From positions 124,001-188,000 of the forward strand of contig JASEFA010000003.1 of the NCBI GenBank assembly GCA_030019365.1: a DNA stretch of 64,000 nucleotides, written 5' to 3'. Positions 7,075 through 58,779 of the stretch are shown here, piece by piece; position 1 is the first letter of the stretch; each line of letters begins with the position of its first letter. Below the pieces are notes generated by a model. That model saw only the letters and a list, made by a program, of their open reading frames with translations. It made no database searches and was not told where the DNA came from. The DNA is from Bacillota bacterium. GTDB taxonomy: Bacteria; Bacillota; Sulfobacillia; JACIYH01. Both the position numbers and the translations under genes were made by a program.

Positions 7075-8432
7075 GCGTTCCGATCTTCAGTGTGTCGGGG
7101 CTGGCGACGGGGCTTGATTGGCGGAAGATCATCGATGAGCTTATGGCCGTCGAGAGACGGCCGATCCAGGTCCTGGAGCAGCGGAGGAGCGGCCTGGAAA
7201 CGGTTAAGAACGCCTGGAGCGACCTGAAGCTGGCTCTTCAGGCCGTCGATACCAAGCTGGACCCGCTCTTGCTGAGCAGCACCTTCCAGGCGCGGGTGGC
7301 GGTGTCATCCAGTGAGGCAGTGGTGAAGGGTACGGCCTCGTCAGGAGCCTCCCTGGGCACCTACGCCATAGGCGTCCAGACGCTCGCGCAGGCTCAGGTG
7401 GTGGCTTCGGCGGCGCAATCCCAGGGTGCCCTGAGCTTGGCCGGCGACATCTATATCAACGGCAAGACCATCTCAGTGGTGACGACGGACGGGGTGGCCA
7501 GCATCCGGGACAAAATCAACGCCACGGCTGGAGTGGGTGTCACCGCTTCCGTGGTAGACACCATTGTGAGCGGCGTCACCAAGAGTATCCTGGTGCTGAA
7601 GAGCAACACCACGGGCACAGCCGGGGCCATGACCCTGTCCGAGGATGCCAACCAGGTCTTGACCAACCTGGGTGTACTGGTCAGCGGCAGCCCCAATGTT
7701 CAGGTGGCGGCGCAGGATGCCGAGCTCACAGTGGATGGCGTGGCCATAACCAGCGGGAGCAATACGGTAACCACCGCCGTGCCGGGGGTCACGCTGGAGC
7801 TTAAGGGTACCGGCTCAGCCACGCTGGAAGTGAAGGCCGATGTGGACAGCATGGTGGGCAAGATCAAGGACTTCGTGAACGCATACAACGGCGCCCTGTC
7901 TAAGCTGCGGATGTACCTCGCGAACGAGCCCAAGAGCGCAGGCCCTTTGGGAGGAGACCCCACCGCCCAGGGGATGGAGCGCCAGTTGCGTCAGCTGGCG
8001 TATGACTCGGTTTCCGGATTGCCTGCCGATATGGACAGCCTGTACGACATCGGCATCTCCACCTCGGACAAAACGGGGGCTCTCGCCATCGACGAGACCA
8101 AGCTCGGTGAAGCCCTGTCTGCCCGCGCGGGCGACGTGGCGAACCTCTTCTACTCGTCCGATCAAGCAGTGAAGAGCGTGGCGGAGAGACTCCGCGATGC
8201 CTTCCGGTTGTGGGTGCAGGCCGGTACCGGGGTTATCCCCACCCGGGAGTCCGGCCTGGACGATCTCATCGAGGACATGGCGGATCGCATGGAGGTCCTC
8301 GAGGAGCGTCTCAAGTTGCGGGAGCAAAGCCTGGTAGACCGGTTCGTCAACCTGGAGCGGAGCATGGCCGTGTTGCAGAGCCAGTCGGCCTGGCTGGAGC
8401 AGAAGCTGGCCGCCCTGCAGCCGGTGGAGTGA
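7071..8432 (+). CDS. fliD: Flagellar filament cap protein
   Basis: This 453-residue protein caps the growing filament and helps flagellin subunits fold into place outside the cell. The N-terminus MSVPIFSVSGLATGLDW, followed by a long helix with MAVERRPIQVLEQRR, and the C-terminal coiled coil with RMEVLEERLKLREQSLVDRF are diagnostic of FliD. The centre is Ser/Thr/Val-rich beta structure and the length is usual for the family. The ATG at 7071 is preceded by GGGGGGTGG and forms the ATGA overlap with the glycosyltransferase; a start 30 bases upstream would add atypical residues. fliS follows after about 95 bases. Confidence 0.93.
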   Translation: MSVPIFSVSGLATGLDWRKIIDELMAVERRPIQVLEQRRSGLETVKNAWSDLKLALQAVDTKLDPLLLSSTFQARVAVSSSEAVVKGTASSGASLGTYAIGVQTLAQAQVVASAAQSQGALSLAGDIYINGKTISVVTTDGVASIRDKINATAGVGVTASVVDTIVSGVTKSILVLKSNTTGTAGAMTLSEDANQVLTNLGVLVSGSPNVQVAAQDAELTVDGVAITSGSNTVTTAVPGVTLELKGTGSATLEVKADVDSMVGKIKDFVNAYNGALSKLRMYLANEPKSAGPLGGDPTAQGMERQLRQLAYDSVSGLPADMDSLYDIGISTSDKTGALAIDETKLGEALSARAGDVANLFYSSDQAVKSVAERLRDAFRLWVQAGTGVIPTRESGLDDLIEDMADRMEVLEERLKLREQSLVDRFVNLERSMAVLQSQSAWLEQKLAALQPVE

Positions 8433-49168: not shown

Positions 49169-49198
49169 CAAGAAAGGTGGGTGCGCGGGGGGCCTGGA

Positions 49199-50074
49199 TT
49201 GTCCTTCACTGTTGAGGTCAAGGAAGAGCTGGCGCGCGTGATGCCGCCCCGTCCCTGCTGCCGGCGGGCGGAATTGCTGGCCCTGTGGTGGTACGGTCGC
49301 CGCCAGGGTTCCTGGCTGGTGGAGAGTGCGGCCACCGCGCGCAAGGTGGTGCGGCTGAGCCGGGGAGCGCTGGGCAAGCCGCCTCGCGTGGAAGCGGTGC
49401 GGGCGGGAGGGCACTACCGCTTCCTGGTGGCCCCTCCAGTGGGATTGCCGGCTCCCGGGGAGGCGGATGGGGAACCGGGCAACGGCTGCTGCCGGCGCTC
49501 TTTCCTGCGCGGAGTGTTCCTGGCCTCCGGCTGGGTGGCCGACCCCGGCCGGGGACACCACCTGGAGCTGGCGCTGCCTTCCCGGGAGGCGGCGGAGGAA
49601 GTGCTCGCCCTGCTGCGGAGCGAGGAGTTGCCCGCCCGGCTGGCCCGGCGGCAGGATACGTACCTGGTGTACCTGAAGAACGGCGAGCAGGTGTCCCGTT
49701 TCCTCATCATGGCCGGCGCCCACGGCTCGGTCATGCGCTTTGAGAACGTGCGCGCCCTGAAGGAAGTCAAGAACCTGGTGAACCGGCTGGTGAATGCGGA
49801 AACGGCCAACCTGGGCAAGGTGGTGGACGCATCCTGGCGCCAGGTGGAGGACGTGCGCGTCATCCTGGCGGCCGGGGTGTGGGAGCAGCTGCCCCGGGCC
49901 CTGCAGGAGGTGGCCCTGGCCCGGCTGCGTCACCCCGATGTAAGCCTGAGGGAACTGGGTGAGACACTGCAACCCCCGGTGGGGAAATCGGGGGTGAACC
50001 ATCGCCTGCGCCGCCTGCACCGGTGGGCGGAACGGGCCCGGGCAGCAGGAGTTGGCGAAGGTGTATGGAAATGA
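49199..50074 (+). CDS. whiA: WhiA DNA-binding protein
   Basis: WhiA, 291 residues, couples chromosome segregation and division in Bacillus and is a sporulation regulator in actinomycetes. It has an N-terminal homing-endonuclease-like (LAGLIDADG) domain and a C-terminal helix-turn-helix, with LSFTVEVKEELARVM, RSFLRGVFLASG, VYLKNGEQVSRFLIMAGAH, RFENVRALKEVKN and NRLVNAETANLGKVVDAS. TTG at 49199 follows GCGGGGGG; an upstream GTG at 49181 is less family-like. The 3' half includes the HTH near residues 240-285. Confidence 0.93.
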   Translation: MSFTVEVKEELARVMPPRPCCRRAELLALWWYGRRQGSWLVESAATARKVVRLSRGALGKPPRVEAVRAGGHYRFLVAPPVGLPAPGEADGEPGNGCCRRSFLRGVFLASGWVADPGRGHHLELALPSREAAEEVLALLRSEELPARLARRQDTYLVYLKNGEQVSRFLIMAGAHGSVMRFENVRALKEVKNLVNRLVNAETANLGKVVDASWRQVEDVRVILAAGVWEQLPRALQEVALARLRHPDVSLRELGETLQPPVGKSGVNHRLRRLHRWAERARAAGVGEGVWK

Positions 50075-50083
50075 TACGGGGTG

Positions 50084-50111
50084 TTGCAAATACCTTGAGG
50101 GGGGCTAATTT
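50084..50111 (+). promoter_or_regulatory. Candidate promoter for the Hdr-Flox operon
   Basis: TTGCAA at 50084-50089, 16 bases, TAATTT at 50106-50111. Transcription would begin near 50118, just before the Rex operator candidate and about 70 bases before hdrC. Confidence 0.45.
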
Positions 50112-50122
50112 TTTCCCTGCTT

Positions 50123-50140
50123 TTGTTACCAAAGGAACAA
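50123..50140 (+). promoter_or_regulatory. Candidate Rex operator
   Basis: TTGTTACCAAAGGAACAA, an 18-base element compared with the Rex consensus TTGTTAA-N4-TTAACAA: 6 of 7 left-arm and 5 of 7 right-arm positions agree, and the outer arms TTGTT/AACAA are perfect. It lies directly downstream of a candidate promoter at 50084-50111 (TTGCAA, 16 bases, TAATTT), where Rex would block transcription at low NADH. A rex gene lies in this window at 58126. Confidence 0.6.
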
Positions 50141-50188
50141 TCCCCGGGTCCGGTGCGCGGGGCCGGGGCGGGGAGGGAGGCCGAGAGG

Positions 50189-50779
50189 GTGAGCAAGGCC
50201 GTACTGCATCTGAGCGAGGGGATGGAGCCGGGGTTCTTGCGTGAGGTAGAAGTAGAGGCGGGAACGAGGGTATCACTCTGCTATCAGTGCGGCAAGTGTG
50301 CGGCATCCTGTCCGGTGTCGTTCGTGATGGACCTGGAGCCGTACCAGGTGATGAGGCTGGTGCAACTGGGCGCCCGCGACGAGGTGCTGCGCTCCCGGAC
50401 CATCTGGCTGTGTGCCTCCTGCACGGCCTGCAGCGAGCGCTGCCCCCGTGAGGTGGACGTGGCCGCCACCATGGACGCCCTGCGGGTGCTGGCCCGGCGG
50501 GCCGGCTACCGGCCCGCGGAGGGGCAGATCGCCCTGTTCCACGGCATCTTCCTGGACAACGTGCGGGATGCGGGCCGGCTGCACGAGCTCGGGCTCATGG
50601 TCCGCTACAAGCTGAAGAGCGGGGGCCTCTTCTCCGACCTGGATGTGGGATTGCCCATGATGCGCCACGGTAAGCTGAAGCCCGTGCCCCACCGCATCCG
50701 GGGGACGGATCAGATGAGGGCGCTCTTCGCCCGCGTGCGCGCCCGCGAGGCCGCGGCGAAGGGAGGGGAGGGGCGGTGA
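50189..50779 (+). CDS. hdrC: Heterodisulfide reductase subunit C-like iron-sulfur protein
   Basis: A 196-residue protein with two 4Fe-4S motifs: CYQCGKCAASCP and CASCTACSERCP, followed by a helical C-terminal region with RIRGTDQMRALFARV. HdrC passes electrons between HdrA and HdrB. GTG at 50189 follows GGGAGGGAGG. It is first in the operon and overlaps hdrB by four bases. The C-terminal end is Ala/Arg-rich. Confidence 0.9.
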   Translation: MSKAVLHLSEGMEPGFLREVEVEAGTRVSLCYQCGKCAASCPVSFVMDLEPYQVMRLVQLGARDEVLRSRTIWLCASCTACSERCPREVDVAATMDALRVLARRAGYRPAEGQIALFHGIFLDNVRDAGRLHELGLMVRYKLKSGGLFSDLDVGLPMMRHGKLKPVPHRIRGTDQMRALFARVRAREAAAKGGEGR

Positions 50780-51645
50780 AGTACGCTTATTTCCCCGGAT
50801 GCTCTCTCTCGGGTACCGCCCGCGAGTACGACCGTTCCACCCGGGCGGTGGCCCGGGTGCTGGGCCTCGAGCTGGAGGAGATCCCCGACTGGTCCTGCTG
50901 CGGGGCGACTTCGGCCCACGCTACTGAGAAGCTGCTTAGCCTGGCCCTGCCCGCCCGCAGCCTGGCGCGGGCCGACGAGATGGGCCTGGACGTGGTGGCA
51001 CCGTGTGCGGCCTGCTTCAACCGGCTACGCACCACCGTCCACGCCGTGCGATCGGACTGGAAGGTACGGCAGGAGGTGGGGGAGGTCCTGGGCCAGGAGT
51101 ACGCGGCCCGCTCCGACGCCTACGCGCTGCCGGACGTGATCGTCAACCGGTACGGCCTGGACAATATCGTCCCCCACCTGAAGAGGAGCCTGGACGGCCT
51201 GAAGGTGGCCTGTTATTACGGCTGCCTGCTGGTGCGGCCGTCGGCCATCACCGCCTCTGACGACCCCGAGGATCCCCAGACCCTGGACCGTCTGGTGCGG
51301 GCCCTGGGTGGGGAGCCGGTGGTGTGGCCCGCCAAGACCGAGTGCTGCGGCGCCTCCCTCAGCATCACCCGCACCCGGGTGGTGTGGCAGCTGGCCGCCC
51401 AGATCCTCACCGCCGCTCAGAGGGCGGGGGCCGAGGCCATCGCGGTGGCTTGCCCCTTCTGCCAGTCCAACCTGGACATGCGCCAGGTGCAGGCCCAGAA
51501 GTGGAGCGGCCGGCGCTGGAACATCCCCGTGTACTACTTCACCCAGCTACTGGGGGTGGCCCTGGGGCTGCCTCCCGGCGAACTCGGACTGGAGAGCCAT
51601 TTCGTGGACCCGCTGGGGGTCCTGCGCCAGAAGGCACTGGTATAA
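50776..51645 (+). CDS. hdrB: Heterodisulfide reductase subunit B-like protein
   Basis: A 289-residue protein with the two cysteine-rich CCG domains (SCCGATSAHATEKL and ECCGASLSITR), each ending in a CxxC pair (CAACFNRL and CPFCQSNLDMRQ). These bind noncubane clusters at the disulfide reduction site. It starts YFPGCSLSGTAREYD, as in the family. Whether a thiol disulfide is the real substrate in this organism is unknown, since heterodisulfide is typical for methanogens only; in bacteria the complex usually reduces another acceptor. Confidence 0.92.
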   Translation: MKYAYFPGCSLSGTAREYDRSTRAVARVLGLELEEIPDWSCCGATSAHATEKLLSLALPARSLARADEMGLDVVAPCAACFNRLRTTVHAVRSDWKVRQEVGEVLGQEYAARSDAYALPDVIVNRYGLDNIVPHLKRSLDGLKVACYYGCLLVRPSAITASDDPEDPQTLDRLVRALGGEPVVWPAKTECCGASLSITRTRVVWQLAAQILTAAQRAGAEAIAVACPFCQSNLDMRQVQAQKWSGRRWNIPVYYFTQLLGVALGLPPGELGLESHFVDPLGVLRQKALV

Positions 51646-51657
51646 GGGGGGCGGGGC

Positions 51658-53634
51658 ATGAAGCGCATCGGCGTATTCCTCTGTCACTGTGGCTCCAACA
51701 TTGCCGGCACCGTGGACATCGACCGCGTCGCGGAAGCGGTGCGCAAGATGCCGGGCGTGGTGTACGCGGAGCAGAACAAGTACACCTGCTCGGAGCCCGG
51801 CCAGGAGCAGATCCGCAAGGGGATCAAGGAGCAGGGCCTGGATCGGGTGGTGGTGGCGGCCTGCTCGCCCCGCATGCACGAGAACACCTTCCGGCGCACG
51901 GTGGAGTCGGCCGGCCTGAACCCCTACCTGCTGGAGATCGCCAACGTGAGGGAGCACTGCTCCTGGGTGCACAAGGACCGGGAGGAGGCCACCGCCAAGG
52001 CCATCGATCTGGTGCGGCGGGCGGTGGCCAAGGTGGTGTTCAACCGGCCCCTCCAGAAAGCGTCCATCCCGGTGGAGAAGCGGGCCCTGGTCATCGGGGG
52101 CGGCATCGCCGGCATCCAGGCCGCCCTGGACATCGCGGACGCCGGCCACGAGGTGTGGCTGGTCGAGAAGGAGCCCTCCATCGGCGGGCGCATGGCGCAA
52201 CTGGACAAGACCTTCCCCACCCTGGACTGCTCCCTGTGCATCCTCACCCCCAAGATGGTGGACGTGGCCCAGCACCCCAACATCCGGTTGCTCACCTACT
52301 CCCGGGTGGAGAACGTGAGCGGGTACGTGGGTAACTTCGAGGTGACGGTACGCAAGCGGGCCCGCTCCGTGGACGAGTCCAAATGCACGGGGTGCGGCAC
52401 CTGCTGGGCCAAGTGCCCCCACAAGGTGCCCTCGCAGTTCGACCTGGGCCTGGGGCAGCGCAAGGTGATCTACGTACCCTTCCCCCAGGCGGTGCCCAAC
52501 AAGCCGGTCATCGACCGCGATCGCTGCGTCTACTTCAAGACGGGTAAGTGCCGGGTGTGCGAGCGCTTCTGCCCGGCGGGCGCCATCGACTTCACCCAGG
52601 AGGACGAGCTCATCACCGAGCGGTTCGGGGCCATCGTGGCCGCCACGGGGTTCGACCTCTTCGACCACGGCCGCTACGGTGAGTACGGGGCGGGGCAGGA
52701 CCCCGACGTCATCAGCGGGCTGCACTTCGAGCGGCTGGTGAACGCCTCCGGTCCTACCGAGGGTAAGATCAAGCGGCCGTCGGACGGCAGGGTGCCCCGC
52801 AGCGTGGCCTTCGTCACCTGCGTGGGCTCCCGCGACGACAAGAAGGGGATCAGCTACTGCTCCCGGGTGTGCTGCATGTACACGGCCAAGCACGCCATCC
52901 TGCTCGCGGAGAAGGTGCCCGGCTGCAGGAGCTACGTGTTCTACATGGACATGCGCACCCCGGGCAAGGGGTACGAGGAGTTTTACAAGCGCTCCCAGGA
53001 GATGGGCACCCAGTACGTGCGCGGGCGGGTGGCGCGCATCTTCCGCGAAGGTGACCACCTGGTGGTGCAGGGCGAGGACACCCTGCTCGGGCGCAAGGTG
53101 GTGGTGGAGGCGGACATGGTGGTGCTGGCCACCGGCATCACCCCCCGGCAGGACGCCGGGGAGCTGGCCCGCACCCTGGGCATCTCGTACGACCAGTACG
53201 CCTTCTTCAACGAGGCCCATCCCAAGCTGCGCCCGGTGGAGACCAACACGGCGGGCATCTACCTGGCGGGCGCCTGCCAGGGTCCCAAGGACATCCCCGA
53301 CGCCGTGGCCCAGGCCAGCGGGGCGGCGGCCAAGGTGTCGGCCATGTTCTCCAGGGACACCCTCACCGCCGATCCCCTCATCGCCACCGTCAACGAGGCC
53401 ATCTGCTCGGGGTGCCTGTGGTGCAAGCCCATCTGCCCCTACCGGGCCATCGACGAGAAGATCATCACCGAGCGGGTGCGCGGGCGCACGGTCAGCCGGC
53501 GGGTGGCCACGGTGAACGCCGGGCTCTGCCAGGGCTGCGGCGCCTGCACGGTGGCCTGCCGGGACGGGGCCATGAACCTGCTCGGGTTCTCCAATGAACA
53601 GGTGCTGGCGGAGGTGGAAGCGCTATGCCGGTGA
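51658..53634 (+). CDS. hdrA: Heterodisulfide reductase subunit A-like flavoprotein
   Basis: A 658-residue FAD enzyme, the likely electron-bifurcating core. The N-terminal part (IGVFLCHCGSNIAG, YTCSEPGQ, VVVAACSPRMHE) is followed by an FAD fold (ALVIGGGIAGIQAALDIADAG, IGGRMAQLDKTFPTLDCSLC) and four iron-sulfur sites: CTGCGTCWAKCP, CRVCERFCP, CSGCLWCKPICP and CQGCGACTVACR. It shares electrons with HdrBC and with the MvhD/FlxD-like subunit encoded next. The ATG follows GGGGGGCGGGGC. It overlaps the mvhD-like gene by ten bases. Confidence 0.95.
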   Translation: MKRIGVFLCHCGSNIAGTVDIDRVAEAVRKMPGVVYAEQNKYTCSEPGQEQIRKGIKEQGLDRVVVAACSPRMHENTFRRTVESAGLNPYLLEIANVREHCSWVHKDREEATAKAIDLVRRAVAKVVFNRPLQKASIPVEKRALVIGGGIAGIQAALDIADAGHEVWLVEKEPSIGGRMAQLDKTFPTLDCSLCILTPKMVDVAQHPNIRLLTYSRVENVSGYVGNFEVTVRKRARSVDESKCTGCGTCWAKCPHKVPSQFDLGLGQRKVIYVPFPQAVPNKPVIDRDRCVYFKTGKCRVCERFCPAGAIDFTQEDELITERFGAIVAATGFDLFDHGRYGEYGAGQDPDVISGLHFERLVNASGPTEGKIKRPSDGRVPRSVAFVTCVGSRDDKKGISYCSRVCCMYTAKHAILLAEKVPGCRSYVFYMDMRTPGKGYEEFYKRSQEMGTQYVRGRVARIFREGDHLVVQGEDTLLGRKVVVEADMVVLATGITPRQDAGELARTLGISYDQYAFFNEAHPKLRPVETNTAGIYLAGACQGPKDIPDAVAQASGAAAKVSAMFSRDTLTADPLIATVNEAICSGCLWCKPICPYRAIDEKIITERVRGRTVSRRVATVNAGLCQGCGACTVACRDGAMNLLGFSNEQVLAEVEALCR

Positions 53635-54059
53635 ACTGGGAGCCGCGCATCATCGGGTTCTGCTGCAACTGGTGTTCCTACGCGGGGGCCGACCTGGCCG
53701 GCACCAGCCGCCTGGAGTACCCGCCCACCGTGCGGGTCATCCGCGTGCCCTGCTCGGGCCGGGTCAACCCCCAGTTCATCGTGCGAGCCTTCCAGAAGGG
53801 GGCGGACGGCGTGCTGGTGGCGGGATGTCACCCCGGCGACTGCCACTACTCGACCGGCAACTACTTCACCCGCCGGCGCCTGCAGGTGGCCCGCCGCTTC
53901 CTGGAGTACCTGGGGATCGACCCCCGCCGCCTGCGCATCACCTGGGTATCGGCCTCCGAGGGCCAGAAGTTCGCGGACACGGTGCGGGAGATGACCGAGG
54001 AAATCAGGGTCCTGGGGCCCAACCGCGTGATGAGGGATGAGCTATGGGCGGCGAACTGA
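53625..54059 (+). CDS. MvhD/FlxD-like iron-sulfur subunit
   Basis: A 144-residue 2Fe-2S protein that transfers electrons to HdrA. Motifs are GFCCNWCSYAGADLAGTSR, RVPCSGRVNPQFIVRAFQKGADGVLVAGCHPGDCHY and RLRITWVSASEG. Cys residues at the two sites fit MvhD. It overlaps hdrA and the next gene by 10 and 16 bases. In the Flx/Flox-Hdr complex the equivalent is FlxD. Confidence 0.92.
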   Translation: MPVNWEPRIIGFCCNWCSYAGADLAGTSRLEYPPTVRVIRVPCSGRVNPQFIVRAFQKGADGVLVAGCHPGDCHYSTGNYFTRRRLQVARRFLEYLGIDPRRLRITWVSASEGQKFADTVREMTEEIRVLGPNRVMRDELWAAN

Positions 54060-55076: not shown

Positions 55077-56159
55077 GTGAGGCGCCTCGAACGCAAGGAC
55101 ATGCGTGCCTTCCTGGATAAGCTGGCCTCCGCCGCCTCCCTGGTGGCCCCGGTGCGGGAGGACGGGGTGGTGGTGTTCCGGCCGGTGTCGTCGGGCGAGC
55201 AGGTGGTGCTTGACTACGTGAACCCGGTACGCTCGGCCAAGGAACTCTTCTTCCCCCAGACCGAGGTCATGTTCCGGTTCCTGCCCTCCCCGGTGGCGGG
55301 CATCACCCCCGTGCAGCCCGACCGGCAGACCGTCCTGTTCGGCATCCGGCCCTGCGACCTGGCCGCCCTCTCCCTGCTGGACGAGGTGTTCCTGGGGGGC
55401 GATTACCGGGATGCCTGCTGGGCCAGACGGCGGGAGCTCACCACCCTGGTGGGCATGGCCTGCGAGCAGCCGGACGAATCTTCCTGCTTCTGCACTGCCT
55501 TCGGCATCACCCCGGGGACGGCGGACGGCGCCGACATCATGCTTTACCCGGCCGGCGAGTGGCTGGGGGTGGAGGTGCTCACCCCGCGGGGCCAGGCCCT
55601 CCTCGACCGGGTGCTGTCGGACGGCGCTGTCGCGCTGGGGGAGATCGGCCCGCCGGGGGCGGCGAGTCAGGCGGGCGCGGGTGGCGGGGCCGGTGAGGCG
55701 GGGGATCGTCTGCAGCAGGAATACCTCAAGCGGCCTGTGCGCCTGGGGGACCGGTTGCGGGTAGGCGACCTGGCGAAGGAGCTCGACGACCGCTTCGACG
55801 ATCCTTACTGGGAGGAAGCGTCCCGGCGCTGCCTGGGCTGCGGCATCTGCACCTACCTGTGCCCCACCTGCCACTGCTTCCTGGTCACTGACGTGCCCAA
55901 GCGGGACGACGGGGTCAGGCTGCGCTGCTGGGATAGCTGCCAGTTCAAGGACTTCCTGCTCATGGCCGGGGGCCATAACCCCCGTCCCACCAAGAAGGAG
56001 CGCACCCGACAGCGCTTTATGCACAAGCTGAACTACTTCGTGCACCGGTACGGCCGTTACCTGTGTACGGGATGCGGGCGGTGCGTGCAGCACTGCCCGG
56101 TGGGCCTGGACATGGCCACCGTGATCGCCGACCTGCGGGGGGTGAGCGAGCATGTTTGA
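55077..56159 (+). CDS. 4Fe-4S dicluster subunit, AsrA/HydB-like (FlxB-like)
   Basis: A 360-residue protein of the anaerobic sulfite reductase A / sulfhydrogenase beta family. Motifs are FGIRPCDLAALSLLDEVF and two clusters, CLGCGICTYLCPTCHC and CTGCGRCVQHCP. A Gly/Ala insert (PGAASQAGAGGGAGEAGD, nt about 55652-55706) sits before the first cluster domain. GTG at 55077 follows GAGGGAGGTGG. It overlaps the flavin subunit gene by eight bases and probably wires NADH-derived electrons to the Hdr part. Confidence 0.85.
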   Translation: MRRLERKDMRAFLDKLASAASLVAPVREDGVVVFRPVSSGEQVVLDYVNPVRSAKELFFPQTEVMFRFLPSPVAGITPVQPDRQTVLFGIRPCDLAALSLLDEVFLGGDYRDACWARRRELTTLVGMACEQPDESSCFCTAFGITPGTADGADIMLYPAGEWLGVEVLTPRGQALLDRVLSDGAVALGEIGPPGAASQAGAGGGAGEAGDRLQQEYLKRPVRLGDRLRVGDLAKELDDRFDDPYWEEASRRCLGCGICTYLCPTCHCFLVTDVPKRDDGVRLRCWDSCQFKDFLLMAGGHNPRPTKKERTRQRFMHKLNYFVHRYGRYLCTGCGRCVQHCPVGLDMATVIADLRGVSEHV

Positions 56160-57081
56160 CCTGGTTTCTCCGGGCGCGCCGCGAGCGGGTGCCGCGGGAG
56201 CCAGTGGCGCGGGTGTACGCGGAGCGGGTGTCACGGCGACGGTAGCGAGCGCCGTGGATCCCATGATGCCCCATCTGGCCCGGATCGAGGAGATCGTGGC
56301 CGAGACCGCTTCCGGGGACGTGAAGACCTTCCGGGTGCAGTTCCTCGACCCTGAGACTTCCTTCTCGCACCTGCCCGGCCAGTGTGCCATGGTCTCGGTG
56401 CTGGGCGTGGGCGAGGCCATGATCTCCATCAGCTCCAGCCCCACCCGGCCCCGCCCCCTGGAGCTGGCCGTGAAGCAGGTGGGACGCCTGACCGCGCGGC
56501 TGCACGAGATGGAGCCGGGGGACGTGATCGGCGTGCGCGGACCGTACGGCAACCACTTCCCCTTCGAGGACATGAAGGGGAAGGACCTCCTCTTCATCGG
56601 CGGTGGCATCGGCCTGGCACCCCTGCGCTCTCTCATCAACTACGTGCTGGACAACCGGGGGGATTACGGTAAAATAGACATCATTTACGGGGCGCGCTCC
56701 CCCGGTGACCTGTGCTTCAAGCGGGAGCTGTACGATGTGTGGCCCTTGGCGCCCGACACCAGGGTGCTGCTCACCGTGGACCGGGGGGACGAGGAGTGGA
56801 AGGGCGCGGTGGCCCTGGTCCCCCACTTCCTCGAGCAGGTGCATCCCGAGCCGGAAGGGAAACTTGCCATTACCTGCGGGCCGCCCATCATGATAAAATT
56901 CACCCTGGAGTCCCTGAAGAAGTTGGGCTTTGCGGATGAGCAGATCGTCACCACGCTGGAACTCAAGATGCAGTGCGGGATCGGCAAGTGCGGCCGATGC
57001 AACATCGGCTCCCGGTACGTGTGCCTGGACGGGCCCGTGTTTACCCTGGCCCAGCTCGAGACGATGCCCGCAGAGTACTGA
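56152..57081 (+). CDS. FAD/NAD(P)-binding oxidoreductase subunit (FlxA-like, AsrB/HydG family)
   Basis: A 309-residue flavoprotein of the ferredoxin-NADP reductase type. It has the FAD-binding region (FSHLPGQCAMVSVLGVGEAM, ISISSSPTRP), the NAD-binding loop FIGGGIGLAPLRSLINYVLD, CGPPIMIKFTLESLKKLGF and the C-terminal 2Fe-2S motif MQCGIGKCGRCNIGSRYVC. It takes electrons from NAD(P)H. The first 34 residues (GAPRAGAAGASGAG-like) are a low-complexity extension not found in usual members; an in-frame GTG at 56254 could bypass it. Last gene of the Hdr-Flox operon. Confidence 0.88.
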   Translation: MFDLVSPGAPRAGAAGASGAGVRGAGVTATVASAVDPMMPHLARIEEIVAETASGDVKTFRVQFLDPETSFSHLPGQCAMVSVLGVGEAMISISSSPTRPRPLELAVKQVGRLTARLHEMEPGDVIGVRGPYGNHFPFEDMKGKDLLFIGGGIGLAPLRSLINYVLDNRGDYGKIDIIYGARSPGDLCFKRELYDVWPLAPDTRVLLTVDRGDEEWKGAVALVPHFLEQVHPEPEGKLAITCGPPIMIKFTLESLKKLGFADEQIVTTLELKMQCGIGKCGRCNIGSRYVCLDGPVFTLAQLETMPAEY

Positions 57082-58125: not shown

Positions 58126-58779
58126 ATGAGTAACAGATCCGTCGACCTGCGCATCCCGGACGCCGCCATCAGGCGGCTCCCGGTGTATCTGAGGGTGCTG
58201 GAGGAGCTGGCCGAGGACGGGGTGGACGTGGTTTCTTCGGCCGAACTGGCCGTCCGCGTAGGTGTCACTCCCGAGCAGATCCGCAAGGACCTGGCCTACT
58301 TCGGGGCTTTCGGCACCCGCGGGGTGGGGTACGACCCCGGCCTGCTGGGCCGCAAGATCAAGCGCATCCTGGGCCTGACCGGCGAGGTGCCGGTGGCCCT
58401 GGTGGGGGCCGGGAACCTGGGTACGGCCCTGGCCCGCCACAATCTGGCTCGCCATAAGGAAGTGCGGATCACGGCCGTCTTCGACCGCGACTGGGACAAG
58501 GTGGGCAAGTCCATCGGAGGCGTGGAGATCCTGCCCCTGGAGGATCTGGAGAGGGAAGTCCGGGCCCAGGGGATCAAGATGGCCATCATCGCCGTGCCTC
58601 CCGGCGAGGCGCAGGCGGTGGCGGATCGACTGATGGACGCCGGCATCGAGGCCATCCTGAATTTCTCGCCCGCCAAGCTGCAGCCCCGGCCGGGGACATA
58701 CATCCAGAACATTGACCTCATGACCGAACTCCAGGCCCTCGCCTATTACACCACCCTGCGCAAGGTAGTGGAAGGGTGA
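58126..58779 (+). CDS. rex: Redox-sensing transcriptional repressor
   Basis: Rex senses the NADH/NAD+ ratio and represses fermentation and respiratory genes when NADH is low. The 217-residue protein has a winged-helix N-terminal domain (IPDAAIRRLPVYLRVLEEL, VTPEQIRKDLAYFGAFGTRGVGY) and a Rossmann C-terminal domain (VALVGAGNLGTALARH, AIIAVPPGEAQAVAD, GIEAILNFSPAKL). ATG at 58126 follows GGAGG. It lies downstream of the Hdr-Flox genes, whose leader has a candidate Rex site. Confidence 0.96.
   Translation: MSNRSVDLRIPDAAIRRLPVYLRVLEELAEDGVDVVSSAELAVRVGVTPEQIRKDLAYFGAFGTRGVGYDPGLLGRKIKRILGLTGEVPVALVGAGNLGTALARHNLARHKEVRITAVFDRDWDKVGKSIGGVEILPLEDLEREVRAQGIKMAIIAVPPGEAQAVADRLMDAGIEAILNFSPAKLQPRPGTYIQNIDLMTELQALAYYTTLRKVVEG

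Follow-up and report, generated by a model that had tools for sequence, protein, structure and literature searches.

Is the hdr-flox operon encoded in the analysed stretch of 64,000 nucleotides (hereafter, the window) controlled by Rex, the NADH-sensing repressor whose gene lies just beyond it? A first-pass annotation had suggested this from a short motif in front of hdrC. We examined the motif and its surroundings in the window, in the whole genome (G000; 2.94 Mb in 27 contigs) and in two congeners (G001 and G002), and compared hdr-flox loci of other lineages.

Gene organization of the hdr-flox locus

The relevant features of the window, all on the forward strand, are as follows.

49181..50074, +, whiA; open reading frame named by eye from the conserved rapZ-yvcK-whiA order; stop 49 bp before the candidate operator
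50084..50111, +, promoter candidate TTGCAA-16-TAATTT of the first-pass annotation; read from the sequence, missed by the promoter scan
50123..50140, +, candidate Rex operator TTGTTACCAAAGGAACAA; motif match, conserved in G001 and G002
50189..50779, +, hdrC-like, first operon gene, GTG start; TIGR03290-type match below cut-off, Fer4 domains
50776..51645, +, hdrB-like; two CCG domains
51658..53634, +, hdrA (HdrA2-like flavoprotein); NF040770, E=1e-259
53625..54059, +, flxD/mvhD-like; FlpD PF02662
54044..55063, +, flxC-like Fe-S subunit; profile matches, conserved position
55077..56159, +, flxB-like Fe-S subunit; profile matches
56152..57081, +, flxA-like FAD/NAD(P)H-binding subunit; NAD_binding_1, DHODB_Fe-S_bind; PRK08345
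57195..58121, +, hepT-like polyprenyl diphosphate synthase, start inferred; TIGR02748, E=2e-76
58126..58779, +, rex (Rex1); PRK05472 NCBIfam models over cut-off, PF06971 and PF02629, RKDL helix, GAGNLG

The cluster encodes HdrA, an HdrB with two CCG domains, HdrC, MvhD/FlxD, a FlxA with NAD(P)H/FAD-binding features, FlxB and FlxC. As in the known FlxABCD-HdrABC NADH dehydrogenase/heterodisulfide reductase, all seven subunit types are found in one gene run, a synteny detected in 90 loci. The arrangement here differs in its hdrCBA-flxDCBA order, with whiA on the 5′ side and hepT-rex on the 3′ side. The rapZ, yvcK and whiA genes stand in the same order beside hdrC in the congeners. When the longest open reading frames are taken, neighbouring genes share 16 bp at the flxD-flxC junction and 10 bp at the hdrA-flxD junction, which suggests that translation is tightly coupled within the predicted operon. 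A gap of 113 bp separates flxA from hepT, and rex begins at 58126, after flxA and a single polyprenyl-synthase gene, just where it had been annotated. Its product, Rex1, combines a winged-helix N domain carrying the RKDL helix with a Rossmann NAD(H) domain and is, by these sequence features, a canonical Rex repressor.

A Rex-like inverted repeat in the whiA-hdrC gap

The whiA stop (50074) and the hdrC GTG (50189) delimit a gap of 114 bp, inside which TTGTTACCAAAGGAACAA occupies positions 50123-50140 of the forward strand, exactly as annotated. The accompanying claim of 11 matches at 14 defined Rex consensus positions holds for the clostridial form TTGTTAAN4TTAACAA (3 mismatches), but not for the general form TTGTGAAN4TTCACAA, for which we counted 9/14 by hand. 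With up to 3 mismatches to the clostridial form allowed, TTGTTACCAAAGGAACAA was the only match in the 64-kb window, while shuffled sequences gave an expectation of 0.01. The site is an exact TTGTT-N8-AACAA inverted repeat and, over its 18 bp, a Rex-type inverted repeat with one mismatch to TTGTKA-N6-TMACAA, at position 13.

In the Thermotoga maritima Rex-DNA complex (PMC8836258), with positions renumbered to fit the 18-mer, G3 is read by Arg48 and A6 by Lys49. The contact bases G3, A6 and C16 are present in the hdr site; position 13 carries G instead of T in each of the three genomes, leaving GGAACAA as the weak half-site. The matrix score of the site is 12.9 in its own genome and 8.5 in G002, where the opposite end reads ACGA, versus 17-19 for the top sites. 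Because one half-site is without T13, the predicted Rex affinity is lower here than at other targets, and the hdr site is most likely a weaker, moderate-affinity Rex operator.

Sites in the same place in the congeners read TTGTTACCAAACGAACAA (G001) and TTGTTACCAAAGGAACGA (G002). Sixteen of the 18 columns of the site are invariant in the three genomes, versus 62/102 in the remainder of the gap (Fisher p = 0.016); taken alone, this conservation is only moderate evidence for an operator. Other targets, yeiH among them (TTGTGAAGCGGTTCACGA, TTGTGAATCCGTTCACGA and TTGTGAACCGGTTCACGA), have fixed half-sites around a variable middle, the pattern expected of an operator.

The promoter proposed in the first-pass annotation has the coordinates and spacing given there (TTGCAA at 50084-50089, TAATTT at 50106-50111, 16 bp apart), but it is weak: it agrees with the sigma-70 hexamers at 7/12 positions, and a promoter scan of 49900-50300 with a cut-off of 9/12 found nothing. 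TTGCAA is conserved in all three genomes and TAATTT in two, the -10 element reading TGCTTT in G001. Since the promoter candidate is weak, we can only infer that Rex would block RNA polymerase at hdrC. A terminator search between whiA and hdrC returned a single weak match, at chance level, which was discarded.

Similar sites precede redox genes throughout the genome

Pattern searches with TTGTKAN6TMACAA and at most 1 mismatch returned 11 sites in the genome and 0 with the reversed control; the congeners gave 11 versus 1 and 7 versus 2. Target genes were assigned from gene calls on fetched stretches and from family searches. Nine of the 11 sites are located in redox-gene promoter regions:

TM1266-hydE-hydG promoter region
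hydrogenase gene cluster/operon promoter region
ahbD-like/hemA promoter region
promoter region of a 742-aa multihaem cytochrome
nfnAB promoter region
yeiH, followed by dsrC-like genes (yeiH-dsr)
SQR promoter region
divergent hdrA/hydrogenase region (hdrA-hnd)
hdr-flox promoter region

The other two, at window position 7564 and at C6:41865 (the latter in a CxxCH haem motif), are intragenic and were set aside as chance matches. With about 88% of the sampled DNA coding, 9/11 sites outside genes correspond to a binomial probability of about 2e-7. The nfnA site lies 23 bp upstream of the start that the NCBIfam match indicates. In the hydrogenase cluster, the site falls just within the longest-ORF reading of the first gene, whose true start presumably lies further downstream. 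The hdr site itself is thus found in a redox-gene promoter region, with like sites at other redox genes, the outcome that the first-pass annotation had proposed as a check.

The set includes promoter kinds with published Rex-binding sites, namely TM1266/hydG, nfn, multihaem cytochromes and the hyd cluster. Rex binding to hydG (CopG-hydG) of Caldicellulosiruptor bescii was demonstrated by EMSA (PMC6391272), nfn of Clostridium kluyveri is Rex-regulated according to work cited in PMC6405883, and multihaem cytochromes and a hyd cluster of C. maritimus are reported Rex targets by motif and expression (PMC7306483). The site, its rarity and conservation, the like sites before redox genes, a canonical Rex and the gene neighbourhood are read directly from the DNA. 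Very probably, the repeat at 50123-50140 serves as a Rex operator and belongs to a genomic set of about nine.

Three promoters carry paired sites

At three mutually non-homologous promoters (yeiH, hydrogenase and TM1266) two Rex-like sites each were found, 126-140 bp and mostly 137 bp apart. The yeiH spacing is 137 bp in all three genomes; the hydrogenase spacing is 137, 137 and 126 bp (G000, G002 and G001) and the TM1266 spacing 139, 136 and 140 bp (G000, G001 and G002). The pairs of G000 are located at:

C4:95519/95656 (L020 7520/7657)
C2:375296/375433 (L019 5796/5933)
C2:361247/361386 (L015 7748/7887)

These spacings are near 12 or 13 helical turns, 137 bp being about 13. The Rex sites of Thermoanaerobacterium saccharolyticum adhE, at -151 and -32, are 119 bp apart (PMC5886521). 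The pairing suggests DNA looping or cooperative binding, looping being a guess. The hdr-flox promoter has a single site.

hdr-flox promoters in other lineages

We collected 139 hdrC loci, of which 90 have hdrA, flxB and flxA in line, and scored their upstream regions with a symmetric Rex matrix, with hand-set, untrained weights of our own and a threshold of 12 bits. Scores of at least 12 were reached by 16 of the 90 hdr-flox regions. Mononucleotide shuffling gave 2.1 such regions and the mirrored matrix 6, the latter count showing that AT-rich palindromes account for part of the signal. The excess is spread across several families, and in one genome (G062) one of only two matches genome-wide precedes hdr-flox. 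Among the 49 non-flox hdrC loci that served as the negative set 2 reached the threshold, both on short contigs; these may be cut-off flox clusters, as one contig running from hdrC to flxB (L090) shows. In this matrix scan of 90 loci many hdr-flox promoters of other families had no clear Rex-like site. The TTGTTAAGGATAGAACAA site of G021 lies inside hepT and was left out of the count. In a further family, three near-identical ATGTGAAAACTATAACAA sites 19 bp apart precede hdr-flox (G163, L115 9632-9687).

A rex gene was found near hdr-flox in 9/90 loci, from several lineages, mostly as hdrCBA-flxDCBA-hepT-rex and once immediately 3′ of flxA. In Candidatus Aerophobetes (L184, L176) rex lies directly upstream of hdrCBA, an independent rex-hdr linkage in another phylum.

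Candidate binders of the hdr site

Besides Rex1, the genome encodes a second Rex-family protein and one Crp/Fnr protein, so the assignment of the hdr site to Rex has to be weighed against other binders. The second Rex-family gene, Rex2 (C7:86978; L236 6964-7599, +), is conserved in the genus, and its product has the same RKDL helix as Rex1 and an NAD-type fold. It is nevertheless unlikely that Rex2 reads the hdr operator, wholly or in competition with Rex1: its gene precedes a methylmalonyl-CoA mutase/MeaB operon with no Rex-like site nearby, for which reason we rejected it as the main binder, while it is Rex1 that is linked to hdr-flox and present across the class. Binding by the Crp/Fnr protein, in the style of HcpR or DNR, appears improbable. 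Such regulators use Rex-like sites (wTGTGAN6TCACAw), the Desulfovibrio HcpR consensus is nearly identical to that of Rex (PMC1274295), a Crp/Fnr protein is encoded in all three genomes, and one G002 site of the set is beside crp-like genes. The hdr site, however, has TTGTT in both halves in place of the Crp-type TGTGA pentamer; read as TGTTA-N6-GAACA, it departs from TGTGA-N6-TCACA at 3/10 defined positions. Each of the three perfect sites of the genome has TTGTTA as one half, and in none of them is the outer T of TTGT lost. The targets of the set overlap published Rex targets, and none of its sites is at the genome's own crp gene (C12:56185; L095 5171-5956, -), which adjoins a NorB/cytochrome-oxidase/NO-reductase-like gene.

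The site could also be conserved for another reason (a promoter element, a leader hairpin CTTTTG-TTAC-CAAAGG or the end of an unrecognised overlap), its likeness to a Rex operator being due to chance. Conservation also extends to the adjacent TTGCAAA and to the leader, and in G002 CCTTTG-TTAC-CAAAGG forms a perfect inverted repeat. The hairpin is disrupted in G001 (CCTTTG/CAAACG), on which ground it was rejected. From the reversed controls in the three genomes, about 4e-5 such motifs are expected by chance in a gap of 114 bp, and independent hdr-flox promoters also carry Rex-like sites. We regard this explanation as very improbable. Rex therefore stays the preferred binder, and the genome-wide site set, the conservation in the congeners and the sites at orthologous hdr-flox promoters together favour the Rex reading of the first-pass annotation.

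Discussion

The Rex regulons described in Bacillota (C. bescii, T. saccharolyticum, C. kluyveri and C. maritimus) share with the present set TTGTKA-N6-TMACAA operators at hydrogenase maturation, Nfn and multihaem cytochrome genes. The hdr site matches exactly the TTGTT-N8-AACAA core that was used to search for Rex sites in T. saccharolyticum (PMC5886521). Unlike in those regulons, hdrCBA-flx is added here as a target, with one weak half-site; the genus also carries a second Rex-family gene and, at three promoters, site pairs with a spacing of about 137 bp. In Desulfovibrio, according to Ravcheev 2012 and Christensen 2015 as cited in PMC4215793 and PMC7531388, Rex controls sulfate respiration (sat, rnf). 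As far as these citations describe it, that system resembles the present one in linking Rex to genes of sulfur respiration and energy conservation (in our case yeiH-dsr and hdr-flox), and differs from it in phylum and gene set. A literature search that did not extend to the regulon papers Ravcheev 2012 and Christensen 2015 found no paper naming Hdr-Flox as a Rex target. The hdr-flox site extends a known kind of Rex regulation; the kind itself is not new.

We propose a circuit, all of whose elements are predicted: binding and repression by Rex, the position of the transcription start, a transcript that includes rex and the activity of the enzyme complex. At low NADH/NAD+ a Rex dimer would occupy TTGTT-N8-AACAA, which would overlap the hdrC promoter or follow just behind it, and block transcription of hdrCBA-flxDCBA. 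A rise in NADH would release Rex and allow the NADH-oxidising Hdr-Flox complex to be made, which would draw NADH down again. If transcripts run through hepT into rex, the circuit would also regulate its own repressor. Because one half-site is weak and the score lower, the hdr-flox site would be expected to be released early as NADH rises. A broader reading, tentative and rather doubtful, is that Rex-Hdr-Flox is an old, recurrent NADH feedback loop, the two being neighbours across Bacillota and even in Aerophobetes, combined with looping at several promoters of the genus between sites 12-13 turns apart, the single-site hdr-flox promoter being the most easily released.

The proposed circuit would let the NADH/NAD+ ratio set how much of an NADH-consuming and probably bifurcating complex is made, by way of a repressor encoded nearby, and would thus be a simple negative-feedback loop for redox balance in anaerobes. 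The analysis also provides a short, testable list of Rex targets in this Bacillota lineage, covering hydrogenase maturation, Nfn, haem synthesis, sulfur respiration and a cytochrome.
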